A DNA stretch of 64,000 bases from an uncultured Desulfobacterales bacterium (GTDB taxonomy: Bacteria; Desulfobacterota; Desulfobacteria; Desulfobacterales; JAHEIW01), in assembly GCA_947259495.1 (NCBI GenBank), contig CAMYLV010000006.1, positions 62,001 through 126,000 on the forward strand. Reading direction: 5' to 3'. The translations under genes and the position numbers were made by a program. The stretch's first letter is position 1, and the number at the start of each line of letters is the position of its first letter. Of this stretch, positions 4,138-58,709 are shown piece after piece. The notes beneath the pieces were generated by a model. The model saw only the letters and a list, made by a program, of their open reading frames with translations. It had not been told where the DNA came from and ran no database searches.

Positions 4138-4415
4138 ATGCATCTCCTTTGACGATCCCGCCATCCGGTTGGCCGGTTTTGCCCGTTGAGCCGGCATAAT
4201 CCGTAAAATCGGAAAAATGTCTAATTTTATTCTTACGGGCAAACGGGTAACGGGTCAACAGGCTCAACCTAAACCATGTTAGAATATAATACCGATAGCT
4301 GAATTTTGTACCAGTCGGCGGTTATCATATTTTCATTAATTTTCATGCAAGGTTCAGATTATACGGAATCCTTTCTGCATTCAATCTTCTCAGCGGATTT
4401 CTGGAGTCATGCTTA

Positions 4416-5066: not shown

Positions 5067-5221
5067 TTGAAACGGCTCCCCGCCGCTGAAAGGTTTGGCG
5101 GAAATTCGTTAATGCCTGATTATTGCCTAAAATTAATGAGAATATGAAAGCCTCCGGCTTGTCCGCCTCTGGTGGACTCTTGCAAAATCCAGGTAAAAGC
5201 CTCATGTGGAACGATTGGATT

Positions 5222-5342
5222 GGTTGTTTTTAACCGGGTGCTTTGCACCCGGTTACAACCGCAACGATTAAAGCACCGAGGTGCTTTTGCCTTTCCGGCC
5301 TATGGCCGAAAAGGCAAGCCACCCGCTTCGCGGGTGGTCGTT
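5222..5342. repeat. Four-hairpin GC-rich cassette, copy A
   Basis: Four successive hairpins: H1 ACCGGGTG/CACCCGGT (5233-5253, extended by GGTTGT/ACAACC outside a bulge), H2 AAGCAC/GTGCTT (5271-5286), H3 14-bp arms 5287-5300 and 5304-5317 with one mismatch, H4 CCACCCGC/GCGGGTGG (5319-5337). Copy B at 17853-17990 has the same order and spacing, with compensatory differences in the stems. The layout suggests a folded RNA or a transposon end (for example of an IS200/IS605-like element), but no transposase or nuclease gene is nearby. The last part is inside the Nudix reading frame. Confidence 0.8.
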
Positions 5343-5911
5343 GACTCAGCAAACCGGGAGATGACCAGCCAGGCTTTCGCGTCAAACTTAAGGGTTGTAT
5401 CATTTAACAACTCCAACGCCTCCCTGGGTGAAACGAGCAGAATTTCAATCATTTCGGATGCGCTGTTGGCGCTGGTTGATGGTGCACCTTCACATTCCAC
5501 ATATACCATTGCCACGGATTCATCGGTCATGCCGGCGGAAGAGTAAATCGGCGGGCTGATTTTTGTGAAGCGGCTGACGGTTAATCCGGTTTCCTCCATC
5601 AATTCGCGGCGGGTGGCCTGCTCAACGGATTCACCCCGATCAACCAATCCGGCGGGGAAGCCATATTCATAGTCATTTAACGGCACGCGATACTCCCGCA
5701 GGATGACCATTTTATTCTCTACGGTGTGATATGGCACAATTACCACGGCATCCGGTTGCCGGTAACGGCCGGTGACGCATTTGGGTTCTTTTTGCCGGGA
5801 CGCAATTTGCCAGGATTTTTCTTCACCGGTTCTGGCGACATATTTTACATCAAACAGATTTAGCCAGCGCTCGGCGGTCAGCTTGCTCGAGTCCTTAATT
5901 TTCACCTTCAT
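5300..5911 (-). CDS. Nudix hydrolase, ADP-ribose pyrophosphatase-like
   Basis: 203 aa. The Nudix box GX5EX7REUXEEXGU is complete: G88, E94 and RELMEETGL at 102-110, which binds the metal and cuts nucleoside diphosphate-X substrates. A GFPAG motif precedes it, as in ADP-ribose/NDP-sugar pyrophosphatases. The last dozen or so residues (TTTREAGGLPFRP) are encoded inside hairpins H3-H4 of the repeat cassette, so the natural 3' end seems to have been replaced and the gene now stops in the stem of H3. The catalytic core is intact, so the enzyme could be active. The start at 5911 is the only reasonable one. Confidence 0.88.
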   Translation of the reverse strand: MKVKIKDSSKLTAERWLNLFDVKYVARTGEEKSWQIASRQKEPKCVTGRYRQPDAVVIVPYHTVENKMVILREYRVPLNDYEYGFPAGLVDRGESVEQATRRELMEETGLTVSRFTKISPPIYSSAGMTDESVAMVYVECEGAPSTSANSASEMIEILLVSPREALELLNDTTLKFDAKAWLVISRFAESTTTREAGGLPFRP

Positions 5912-6442: not shown

Positions 6443-6943
6443 ATGGCCAGTTCACCTAGTCGCAAAGACATATCCGGTTCCATCTCAGATCAAACTGAAA
6501 AGCGCTCCGGCCAGGATCGGCGCACCCATCAGTTCCCGAAACTGAAATACCTGCTATTTTCCGGTACTCGGGCCAAAGTCCGCCGTAAGGAAGATTTGCA
6601 CCATACATTTTATTTTGATCGTTACAGTTCAAGCCTTTTTGCGGCCATCGTTGCCATCCTGCTGCTGAGTGTTCTCGACGCATTGTTAACCCTGCATTTG
6701 ATCGGCAGAGGATCAAACGAAATGAACCCCATCATGTCCTATTTCCTCAAATACGGACCCTTTGCATTCATGGGGGCAAAGTATTTTCTAACCTGTTTCG
6801 GTGTTGTTATTCTGCTGTTATTTAGAAATGTTTTGCGAAAAAGATCGAATACCCACGCCCAGAACATCTTCTCCTATATCATCTGCGCCTTCGCCAGCGT
6901 TATTGTATGGGAGCTTTATTTAATTTTTTTTGTGGTATCTTAG
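6443..6943 (+). CDS. DUF5658 membrane protein
   Basis: 166 aa. A polar N-terminus containing the motif EKRSGQDRR is followed by three hydrophobic segments, with the typical DUF5658 pattern LDALLTLHLIGRGSNEMNP between the first and second. The SxxDxxxT...NPxM arrangement is the family hallmark. Function is not established for this family; it is an inner-membrane protein. The RSGxDRR motif is shared with the small protein at 56423-56611. A likely start is the ATG at 6443, after an AAGGGG sequence. Confidence 0.8.
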   Translation: MASSPSRKDISGSISDQTEKRSGQDRRTHQFPKLKYLLFSGTRAKVRRKEDLHHTFYFDRYSSSLFAAIVAILLLSVLDALLTLHLIGRGSNEMNPIMSYFLKYGPFAFMGAKYFLTCFGVVILLLFRNVLRKRSNTHAQNIFSYIICAFASVIVWELYLIFFVVS

Positions 6944-6984
6944 ATTTCTCACGCAAAGGCGTAAAAATTTTCCATACCGCTTTC

Positions 6985-7012
6985 TTGACTTTTGGGAGAC
7001 AACCCCTATTAT
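6985..7012 (+). promoter_or_regulatory. Predicted sigma-70 promoter for the zinc-ribbon gene
   Basis: TTGACT at 6985-6990, a 16-bp spacer, and TATTAT at 7007-7012, each matching the consensus at five of six positions. It lies 31 bp before the ATG at 7043, giving a short leader that contains the AGAGGAG ribosome-binding site. Confidence 0.5.
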
Positions 7013-8105: not shown

Positions 8106-8210
8106 GGTTCCCCCTTTCCGATGTATAACATAAGCGCTTATCTCTGTTGCACAACCGACCCCTGCCATCCCGCAGAGAACGGAACGTTTTTATGACAACC
8201 GCTATACAAC

Positions 8211-17791: not shown

Positions 17792-18016
17792 TATAGTGGT
17801 TGTCAAAAAAACGTGCCGTTATTTCAACGTTTTTTTCTACAACCACTTATACCCCAATTCCTTAATTGGGTGTAACCGGGTGCTTTGCACCCGGTTACAC
17901 CCACACCGATTAAGGCACTACCGTGTCTTTGGTTTTTCCGCTGACGGCGGAAAAATTCAAGCCACCCTCTCTGCGGGTGGTCGGTGGCTCGGAACATCAT
18001 TATGAAAAGCGGTATA
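17792..18016. repeat. Family 1 AT-rich palindromic repeat carrying the hairpin cassette
   Basis: The left part TATAGTGGTTGTCAAAAAAA and the arm AACGTTTTTTTCTACAACCA form the family 1 hairpin. The right end reads GGAACATCATTATG and then CGGTATA, as in intact copies. Between them, where other copies have only about 18 bp, sits the four-hairpin cassette (copy B). So one repeat seems to have been inserted in the other, or they form a composite element. It separates the FAD dehydrogenase and TIM-barrel genes. Confidence 0.85.
17853..17990. repeat. Four-hairpin GC-rich cassette, copy B
   Basis: An extra leading hairpin CCCAATT/AATTGGG (17853-17870), H1 with perfect 15-bp arms (17868-17882 and 17888-17902), H2 AAGGCAC/GTGTCTT (17912-17929), H3 TTTTTCCGC/GCGGAAAAA (17933-17955), H4 CCACCC/GGGTGG (17962-17980). 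Relative to copy A at 5222-5342 the outer H1 pairs change from GGTTGT/ACAACC to GGGTGT/ACACCC, and H3 from CCGGCC-type to CCGC-type arms, so pairing is kept while sequence changes. Confidence 0.8.
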
Positions 18017-25037: not shown

Positions 25038-25502
25038 ATCAGATGCCGCTGCCTTTTCTGATTTTTGTTACCGATGGCAGCAATCCATTTTTGCTGCATC
25101 TTATCATAGGAGATCTTCTTGACAATTCTTTTTTTAGCTCAATTATGAAGATAAATTCCTTGCACAACATTTATAGTGGTTGTCAAAAAAACGTTCCGGA
25201 TTTTCAATCGACGTGCGCTATAAGCCGCACCGCGCTGGGTGAATTGCCCCCCTCTTTGTTGGGTTAAAGGGATGGCCGTCATCGGTGCATTTAGCACTAT
25301 TTAACTTTATTTCATTTGGTTAGATAAATCTTTGTTGGGATTGCACGCACAGATGGGTTGATGGCACCCTTATTGCTTTTTGAGCCTAATAAGGGTCTAA
25401 ATCCGCCTTTTAGCATCCGGTTGAGGTTCAAATGCGGTCGGTCAACTATCGGAGCCGGGAACCGCTAATATAAACATATTTTCTTTTTGCGGGAGAACAA
25501 TT
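25038..25502. other. 465-bp intergenic region with a partial family 1 repeat
   Basis: Contains the left hairpin arm of the family 1 repeat at 25172-25200 (TATAGTGGTTGTCAAAAAAA and six more matching bases), after which the sequence diverges, so this copy is truncated. The rest shows no gene. A possible -35 TTGACA at 25119 has only a poor -10. Confidence 0.55.
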
Positions 25503-27238: not shown

Positions 27239-27342
27239 TTATAGGGGTTGTCAAAAAACGTTGCGGTATCCAAAACGCTTTTTTCTACAACGCCTCATGC
27301 CGCACTTCGGTATTCCGGAACATTATTATGGGTAACGGTATA
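27239..27342 (+). repeat. Complete family 1 AT-rich palindromic repeat
   Basis: Starts TATAGGGGTTGTC and ends CGGTATA. The first half forms an imperfect hairpin (GGGGTTGTCAAAAAACG against CGCTTTTTTCTACAACG-type arm); the second half carries ATGCCGCACTTCGGTATTCC and the ATTATTATGG core. It begins three bases after the DUF4197 stop and might also act as a 3' structure for that mRNA. Confidence 0.85.
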
Positions 27343-29528: not shown

Positions 29529-29560
29529 GCATTCCTCCTATGGCAGTCAACCGAAGCGTT

Positions 29561-29690
29561 TATACCGTTTTCCATAATAATGTTCGGGAATACGGAAGTG
29601 CGGCATAAGTGGTTGTAGAAAAAAACGTTTGAATATCGCAACGTTTTTTGACAACCACTATAAATACCGCAACACTTTTTTGACAACCCC
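29561..29690 (-). repeat. Family 1 repeat, complete copy plus an extra arm
   Basis: A complete copy (29561-29663) runs from TATACCGTTTTCC to AACCACTATA, with hairpin arms GTGGTTGTAGAAAAAAACGT and AACGTTTTTTGACAACCAC. Directly after it, TACCGCAACACTTTTTTGAC and then AACCCC (29665-29690) is the arm of a second copy. This fits a full element inserted in the hairpin loop of an older one whose other half is lost, as seen complete near 44.0 kb. Confidence 0.8.
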
Positions 29691-43926: not shown

Positions 43927-44133
43927 TTATAACGTTTTCCATAATAATGTTCCGGAATAAGGAAGTGTGGCATAAGGGGTTGTAGAAAAAAACGTTTGTA
44001 CCGTTTTCCATAATAATGTTCCGAAATACAGAAGTGCGGCATAAGTGGTTGTAGAAAAAAACGTTTGAATATCGCAACGTTTTTTGACAACCACTATAAA
44101 TACCGGAACGTTTTTTTGACAACCCCTATAAAT
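43927..44133 (-). repeat. Family 1 repeat with a second copy inserted in its loop
   Basis: The outer copy starts at 43927 (TTATAACGTTTTCC) and reaches the first hairpin arm GGTTGTAGAAAAAAACGTTT (to 43998). A complete second copy (43999-44098, TACCGTTTTCC to AACCACTATA) follows. Then the outer copy resumes with its other arm (AACGTTTTTTTGACAACCCC, ending TATAAA at 44132). The join fits insertion into a TA within the loop. This is good evidence that the element has moved. Confidence 0.85.
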
Positions 44134-58602: not shown

Positions 58603-58705
58603 TATAGTGGTTGTCAAAAAAACGTTTCGATATTCAAACGTTTTTTTCTACAATTACTTATGCCAAAATTCCGTGAATCGGAACACTATTATGGAAAGCG
58701 GTATA
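58603..58705 (+). repeat. Complete family 1 AT-rich palindromic repeat
   Basis: Starts TATAGTGGTTGTC and ends CGGTATA. The hairpin arms are AGTGGTTGTCAAAAAAACGT and AAACGTTTTTTTCTACAATT; the later core has ACTATTATGG. It lies between the convergent PRTase-like gene and the importer permease gene. Confidence 0.85.
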
Positions 58706-58709
58706 ATTG

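Follow-up and report, generated by a model that had tools for sequence, protein, structure and literature searches.

A covarying hairpin cassette in Desulfobacterales genomes is probably a PATE-like, tnpA-less IS200/IS605 element

Introduction

The 64,000-nt stretch of DNA from an uncultured Desulfobacterales bacterium analyzed here (the window) carries, in two places, the same short array of hairpins, the stems of which differ in sequence from one copy to the other while remaining paired. What kind of element preserves a fold in this manner, and is it as RNA or as DNA that the fold is preserved? A reading made from the sequence alone had taken the altered stems as a sign of selection for a folded RNA or a folded DNA end, had thought of non-autonomous elements or free structured RNAs, and had known no named family that fits. 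Our own search of the literature, conducted mostly at the level of titles and abstracts, brought up no description of this cassette family.

The answer that we favor, and that sequence comparison makes very probable, is that the cassette is a non-autonomous IS200/IS605 element of the PATE kind, comprising folded left and right ends of the IS200 type without a tnpA gene. Such an identity would account for a class of intergenic folds, conserved and easily mistaken for a new RNA by a reader or by an RNA search, and the balance of G·U against A·C mismatches in the stems offers a simple test that points to DNA. The cassettes also make available many naturally occurring IS200-type ends that differ by compensatory changes. 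Some of these changes lie in a stem touching the right cleavage site, so that the pairing of guide and target might be put to the test. At the same time, they raise the question of what moves such cassettes where a cognate tnpA is not found.

Architecture of the Two Copies

The cassette unit measures 122–125 nt. Copy A, on the forward strand at positions 5222–5346, is a complete solo element of 125 nt as counted from the start of stem P1 to a terminal GACT (covariance-model match of 146 bits), the length of the insertion being shown by an empty site in the genome G001. Just upstream, the left target ATT (5219–5221, forward strand) is retained in the flank, here as GGATT, where the family consensus from a tally of 72 flanks is TT[G/T/A]ATT. 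When single-stranded, whether as DNA or as RNA, copy A is predicted to form a left-end hairpin (5222–5260), in which P1 (GGTTGT/ACAACC) encloses a bulged P2 (AACCGGGTGC-TTT-GCACCCGGTT), followed by a four-way junction (5262–5343), the closing stem of which, P3, pairs CAACG at 5262–5266 with CGTTG at 5339–5343 around the hairpins P4 (5270–5287), P5 (5288–5316), and P6 (5319–5337), all on the forward strand. The left hairpin, the junction, P4, and P5 are assigned from folding together with an alignment of 52 copies. P6, CCACCCGC-TTC-GCGGGTGG, resembles, as matches to the R2 model described below show, the hairpin that comes last in the right ends of IS200 tnpA elements. The element ends with GACT (5343–5346, forward strand), the equivalent of a right cleavage site according to the flank tally and the empty site, with the C at 5347 already belonging to the flank (+1 C). 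Copy A has entered the 3' end of a NUDIX hydrolase gene (5300–5911, reverse strand), the last codons of which are now derived from the element.

Measured against dinucleotide shuffles, the z-scores for the fold of copy A are −9.2 as DNA and −8.1 as RNA, those for its minus strand are −9.7 as DNA and −10.1 as RNA, and that for copy B is −8.9 as DNA, with 0 of 200 shuffles as stable in each test; both strands of copy A fold strongly. The sequence-only reading had placed two copies of four stems, in the same order, where they are indeed present, and its four hairpins were correct; it had overlooked the enclosing fifth stem, P3, which folding reveals, and the exact ends, which can now be refined to 5222–5346 for copy A and, by sequence comparison, to 17868–17989 (forward strand) for copy B. 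Its description of A and B as partners is right insofar as they belong to one family, but the two are not equivalent, A being a solo element and B a cassette inside another MITE.

This other element, which we call the S-MITE, is a separate unit of ~105 nt (TATAGTGG...GCGGTATA) with TATA...TATA ends and a long A/T-rich 5' hairpin; the composite of S-MITE and copy B spans 17792–18016 (forward strand), its right edge having been read from the sequence. The S-MITE has many copies in the window's own genome (G000), where its left hairpin is present in 19 of the 24 B-type cassette copies, and its left part gives at least 71 matches (40 of 301 first-look candidates were scored, and composites as well as reverse readings of the palindrome are included). 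Many fetched loci hold the S-MITE without any cassette. From these sequences it appears that one cassette landed in an S-MITE and then multiplied with it, in G000 and in G003. Further S-MITE copies or pieces lie in the window at 27240–27342, 29560–29662, 43927–44130, and 58603–58706, and partial ends at 412–438, 8178–8206, and 25172–25198. The locus L032, considered as a holder of an autonomous element on account of a second partial copy, was rejected, the second piece being another S-MITE. A third short repeat (CCTCCGGCTTGTCCGCCTC...) occupies 5150–5197, with nine more copies of 44–64 nt in G000 and a piece near the NUDIX locus of G001.

Insertion Sites and Mobility

The flanks of 72 copies were tallied, three S-MITE composites being omitted and three G074 copies (in a larger repeat or similar) being kept. 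The left flank reads TT[G/T/A]ATT, with T at −6 in 45 copies, T at −5 in 59, A at −3 in 55, T at −2 in 65, and T at −1 in 62. At the other end, GTTGACT is found in 43 of the 72 copies and GTTTACT in 9, and the only strong signal in the right flank is a C at +1 (52 of 72). For copies with a strict TT[G/T/A]ATT, this C follows in 20 of 32 cases, where the background, taken from occurrences of that hexamer in flanking DNA, is 22% (p ~ 1e-6).

Empty sites give the same picture. Joined at ATT|C, the flanks of copy A correspond to an orthologous empty site in G001, a member of the same genus, in a gap-free alignment of 395 nt that continues for 41 nt beyond the junction and keeps the NUDIX stop codon in register; with G002 and G003, the alignments of the joined flanks end at the junction. 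At the locus L031, removal of the element lets a tyrosine recombinase frame (PF00589) continue across the junction, the PF00589 domain itself ending before that point. Copy A and L031 were picked from 77 joined copies since the interrupted gene was recognizable, and many of the 77 junctions are crossed by chance frames. Both states of one site are seen on a single contig at L063, where an S-MITE occurs empty, as CCGTCATT|CGGAAC, and filled, as CCGTCATT-GGGTG...GACC-CGGAAC. All three sites point to insertion after ATT without loss of sequence and without duplication, apart from one base that may be shared.

The cassette is mobile. As read from its sequence, it has hairpins near both ends, no inverted terminal repeats, and no transposase gene. 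The earlier suggestion of a non-autonomous element is borne out. Cassette orientation compared with local GC skew gives 33 of 62 loci having at least 4.5 kb of flank, a measure by which no bias toward the lagging-strand template is evident; DnaA_C matches were obtained in five of six single- or few-contig genomes, G190 having none.

Fold Conservation: DNA or RNA

In a 30-copy MAFFT alignment, 21 of 47 pairs are changed on both sides, as opposed to 10.6 in shuffles, and the covariation score is reached by 0 of 500 shuffles. With 52 diverse copies, the number of such pairs rises to 40 of 47, with 89.3% of cells paired (71.4% when shuffled) and a covariation score of 0.443 (0.141 when shuffled); this larger alignment was fitted to the covariance model, and so leans toward structure, and it includes four rows (L239–L242) from a bigger repeat with other ends. 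RNAalifold, applied to an earlier and poorly registered alignment, gave 2 such pairs among 22. In G614 and G667, the stems are mostly exchanged with pairing retained. Compensatory change of the stems, first noted from just two copies, is a property of the family, and selection for a folded form finds support both in the fold z-scores and in covariation above that of shuffles.

Were an RNA selected on one strand, G·U would be expected to be more tolerated than A·C. The stems of the cassette display these mismatches in ratios (G·U:A·C) of 58:59 in 52 sequences, 86:101 in 84 sequences, and 31:26 in 30 sequences, pair positions with less than 70% Watson–Crick pairing being omitted from the count. 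A small control, the acceptor stems of 13 tRNAs, gives 3:0; here fixed acceptor-stem positions were used rather than ARAGORN brackets, which may be drawn only on pairs. Because G·U and A·C are equally common in the cassette stems, we take selection to act on folded DNA and not on RNA; the conservation looks like single-stranded DNA pairing. Of the two possibilities left side by side by the sequence-only reading, it is the DNA end that is favored, and the free structured RNA, with G·U no commoner than A·C, that finds no support.

Consider nonetheless the proposal that the cassette is a structured noncoding or cis-regulatory RNA that has spread as a repeat, its fold being kept since the transcript works as RNA. 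The strong fold, the covariation, and the elaborate four-way junction would all suit such a molecule. We regard it as very unlikely, given the mismatch counts (58 against 59, or 86:101 in the larger set), which lack the signature of RNA selected on one strand, and given the strong folding of both strands. Orientation with respect to neighboring ORFs also varies (−/− in 32 copies, +/+ in 22, −/+ in 20, and +/− in 13, for 87 copies that include composites, with naive ORF calls), and the recurrent neighbor families are generic, namely a PAS histidine kinase and an ABC transporter group. Nor does the window have a match to Rfam at gathering scores, the best sub-threshold match being sok, which scores 23.5 bits where its gathering score is 59, and 14.4 in another copy.

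Relation to IS200 Elements and PATEs

If the fold is one of DNA, to what does it belong? The right end of an IS200-type tnpA locus in G037 (L247), the product of which is classed as NCBIfam transpos_IS200, reads like the right half of the cassette. This likeness prompted a test with R2, a covariance model of the right half built from 26 cassettes only. TnpA homologues occur in 119 of 389 genomes of the order (E ≤ 1e-20), and R2 matches 23 of 30 IS200 tnpA loci (E ≤ 1e-3), the idea-giving L247 being among the 30, with a 24th at 0.003; of the seven loci that miss the 1e-3 threshold, two are truncated by the end of a contig. For control loci (RAYT-like Y1 and NUDIX) the result is 0 of 30, none reaching 0.01 and the best standing at 0.21. 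The best matches in the 24 loci (E ≤ 0.003) all share the strand of tnpA and lie at −19 to 111 nt relative to its 3' end, and in 20 of the 24 they end in TGACT.

The autonomous element can be delimited from 20 IS200 copies in four genomes, each bounded by TAATT on the left and by TGACT on the right, in a layout that runs variable flank, TAATT, 9–10 nt, AAACC hairpin (altered in one of the 20), tnpA, right-end hairpins, TGACT, variable flank. The plan of the cassette is the same without tnpA: TTNATT, 10 nt, (A)AACC hairpin, three hairpins, GTTNACT. At the left end the likeness is one of layout, with similar spacing and an AAACC start, and the strict left-end pattern is found in 13 of 29 tnpA loci. 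IS200 elements of the order (G733, G739, and G037:C188) share with the cassette an AAGCC[A/T]CC..GG[T/A]GGT right-end hairpin preceded by further hairpins, the TGACT end, and, as a matter of layout, the 9–10 nt between the left edge and the AAACC hairpin, whereas they differ from it in carrying tnpA, in having a mostly imperfect P3, and in targeting TAATT rather than TT[G/T/A]ATT. Because its right half matches the right ends of IS200 tnpA elements, the cassette fits the tnpA-less IS200/IS605 (PATE-like) kind, and the earlier statement that no fitting named family was known is incomplete. That reading had also advised a look for copies next to IS200/IS605, TnpB, or IscB genes; in 20 genomes surveyed, no TnpB was found over the cut-off.

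The stem P3 deserves separate comment. In the 52-copy cassette alignment it is paired in 88.8% of cells and covaries from CAACG/CGTTGACT to AAACT/AGTTTACT and to CACCG/CGGTGGCT, but most of the eight right ends compared from tnpA loci have it in imperfect form. Since P3 shares bases with the right cleavage site and for the most part varies in step with it, some rows being mismatched, this stem may be a guide interaction.

PATEs, as characterized in those parts of the published accounts on which we draw (PMC3119063, PMC7290912), are free of transposase genes, terminal repeats, and target duplications, and have palindromes close to their termini, related to IS605-type ends. Like the PATEs of Haloquadratum and Halanaerobium so described, the cassette lacks inverted terminal repeats and target duplication, has near-terminal palindromes, is too short for a transposase, and possesses ends related to those of IS200/IS605-type transposons; since it has the features of a PATE wherever these are settled, we file it under that kind. 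On the other hand, and again as far as these partial accounts go, it is unlike PATEs in that the family spans 30 of 138 sampled genera of one bacterial order, in that a single compound hairpin forms the left end and a fifth stem encloses the three hairpins of the right end, in its conservation by compensatory changes, and in that no parent tnpA was found in G000. Among autonomous relatives, again from partial accounts, ISDra2 inserts 3' of TTGAT (PMC2806898), while IS608 inserts 3' of TTAC, uses guide tetranucleotides that pair with the cleavage sites, and prefers a C at +1 (about 70% TTAC|C; PMC5934647). With the cassette these two share insertion 3' of a short AT-rich sequence, hairpins near both ends, and a +1 base preference; they are unlike it in being autonomous, and a right block of three hairpins is not among their features as described in the parts of the sources used here.

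The Mobilizing Enzyme and Alternative Identities

A search at E ≤ 1e-20 found no IS200 tnpA in G000–G003, i.e., in the window's own genome and genus. The Y1 genes of G000 number only three, RAYT-like to judge from their length and flanks, and no Y1 transposase is found on the window's contig; TnpB (PF07282) is over the cut-off in 0 of 20 genomes, G000 included, with one sub-cut-off match in G141. The earlier observation that no transposase or TnpB lies nearby is consistent with these results as regards Y1 on this contig and TnpB in G000. The PF01797 and TnpB surveys revealed no gene travelling with the cassette, and an autonomous partner nearby was rejected, none being recognized among 594 clustered neighbor ORFs, where representatives identify the two biggest clusters, of 11 and 8 loci, as the PAS histidine kinase and the ABC transporter group mentioned above. 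Over the order, IS200 tnpA is present in 17 of 54 cassette genomes as against 68 of 237 others, i.e., with no association (Fisher p 0.74, on the assumption that the 389 genomes of the tnpA search include the 291 of the cassette search). With no IS200 tnpA in G000 or its genus and no co-occurrence of cassette and tnpA, the mobilizing enzyme is one that we infer. A cognate tnpA in the genome is usual for a PATE and not defining, and a PATE can outlive its parent.

In the mechanism that we envisage, a Y1 (HUH) TnpA would be supplied in trans by an IS200 copy now lost from, or unsampled in, the genus. This enzyme would bind the cassette hairpins, cleave after TTNATT on the left and after TTNACT on the right, and excise the cassette as a single-stranded circle, which would then be pasted after a new TTNATT. 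In P3, the partner bases of CAACG overlap the right cleavage site, and this stem may play the part of the known pairing between guide and cleavage site. Within the genus, one cassette would have gone into an S-MITE and then been amplified along with S.

The cassette might instead be moved by a RAYT-like Y1 protein, a relative of TnpA_REP such as the three in G000, and not by an IS200 TnpA. PF01797 matches occur in 18 of 19 cassette-bearing genomes tested, including some without IS200 tnpA. Of the seven RAYT-like Y1 genes in G003, two have a composite cassette at distances of 1.4 and 1.8 kb, and a third has a cassette 4.3 kb away; G004 has such a gene with a cassette fragment 2.2 kb away (L102, L103, L104, L105). 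The proximity in G003, noticed after the fact, has a p of 0.008 in a crude simulation for which the cassette count is a floor; it keeps this explanation alive. We nevertheless judge it quite unlikely. REP/RAYT systems resemble the cassette in combining dispersed palindromes with Y1 genes in the same genomes, but REPs, as described in the part of the source used here (PMC8266576), are palindromes of 20–50 nt behind a GTAG-type tetranucleotide, so that neither unit size nor tetranucleotide agrees with a 125-nt unit of four hairpins. Moreover, the right end of the cassette matches IS200 right ends and not the RAYT-like control loci, no PF01797 (Y1) match was obtained in G263 in spite of its 11 or more cassettes (although MAGs can miss transposases), and the 23 inspected Y1 genes have other edge sequences. 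On these edges the RAYT-like genes were rejected as parents, with the G003 proximity standing against that rejection. These genes (L067, L068, L069, and L102–L121) mostly encode ~320–345 aa, and many are flanked, by eye, by inverted GGGTCAAATCTT-like or GGGACGTCC-like motifs; several RAYT-like Y1 sites in G005 and G074 also match the DnaA C-terminal domain.

A further conception would make the whole four-helix fold the working part, a DNA cloverleaf in which P3 serves as a programmable guide for the element's own right cleavage site, the cassette being an orphan that multiplies without IS200 tnpA by way of some other single-strand enzyme in trans, e.g., a RAYT-like Y1; we find this unlikely. 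Another alternative is an IscB/TnpB-linked RNA element (HEARO or omega-RNA) or other relic of an RNA-guided nuclease. It would have in its favor a multi-stem fold and the relationship to IS200/IS605, and is rendered extremely improbable by a window without Rfam matches at gathering scores and by TnpB (PF07282) remaining absent over the cut-off in all 20 genomes, the one sub-cut-off match being that in G141. Equally hard to credit is an integron attC site or a rolling-circle (IS91/Helitron-like) end, notwithstanding that these too would entail a folded single-stranded substrate and no target duplication. The attC core is GTTRRRY, which the right end GTTGACT misfits, the cassette fold is multi-branched, and the right ends match those of IS200 tnpA elements.

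Distribution and History

How widely, then, has this PATE-like element spread in the window's own genome and among related sulfate reducers, many of which carry it? In G000 (69 contigs, 97% complete), DNA search and inspection identified 31 cassette loci, 24 of which are like copy B and form one subgroup, the other seven being like copy A. The sequence-only reading had recommended a covariance-model search of related genomes, and such a model (R1) finds a match in 54 of 291 genomes of the order, the window's own included, in 30 of 138 genera (E ≤ 1e-3). In a sample of the phylum, 10 of 395 genomes match, again including the window's own; seven are outside the order, three of these with a single marginal match (E > 5e-4). 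Counts per genome in both searches are lower bounds, with 11 or 8 candidates scored in each genome. An exact 23-mer from the core hairpin, which is the whole of the search beyond Desulfobacterota, retrieved 17 stretches, all labelled as Desulfobacterota-type MAGs (Desulfobacterales and other Deltaproteobacteria), and no cassette match was found in phage, plasmid, and viral collections, the viral scan being for one exact pattern.

Within genomes, the mean identity of fetched copies is 0.91–0.95 in G190, G263, G667, G127, G131, G256, and G614, 0.87–0.89 in G067, G279, and G037, and 0.81 among five solo copies of G000 itself. Judging from these values, the cassette would seem to have spread fairly recently in some genomes and long ago in G000.

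Several loci show other arrangements. L036, taken up as an array, was rejected, being a full copy beside a partial one. L239–L242 (G497) belong to a bigger repeat with a similar hairpin array and different ends, which may be an analogous element; being weak matches, they were excluded from the cassette family count. In G074, a 283-nt repeat that holds the cassette occurs as an inverted pair 3 kb apart and 97% complementary (L154:3437–3719 and 6710–6992). Finally, at L027:4018–4143, a solo cassette lies between the arms of a terminator-like inverted repeat and adjoins a tRNA-Lys (4162–4238).
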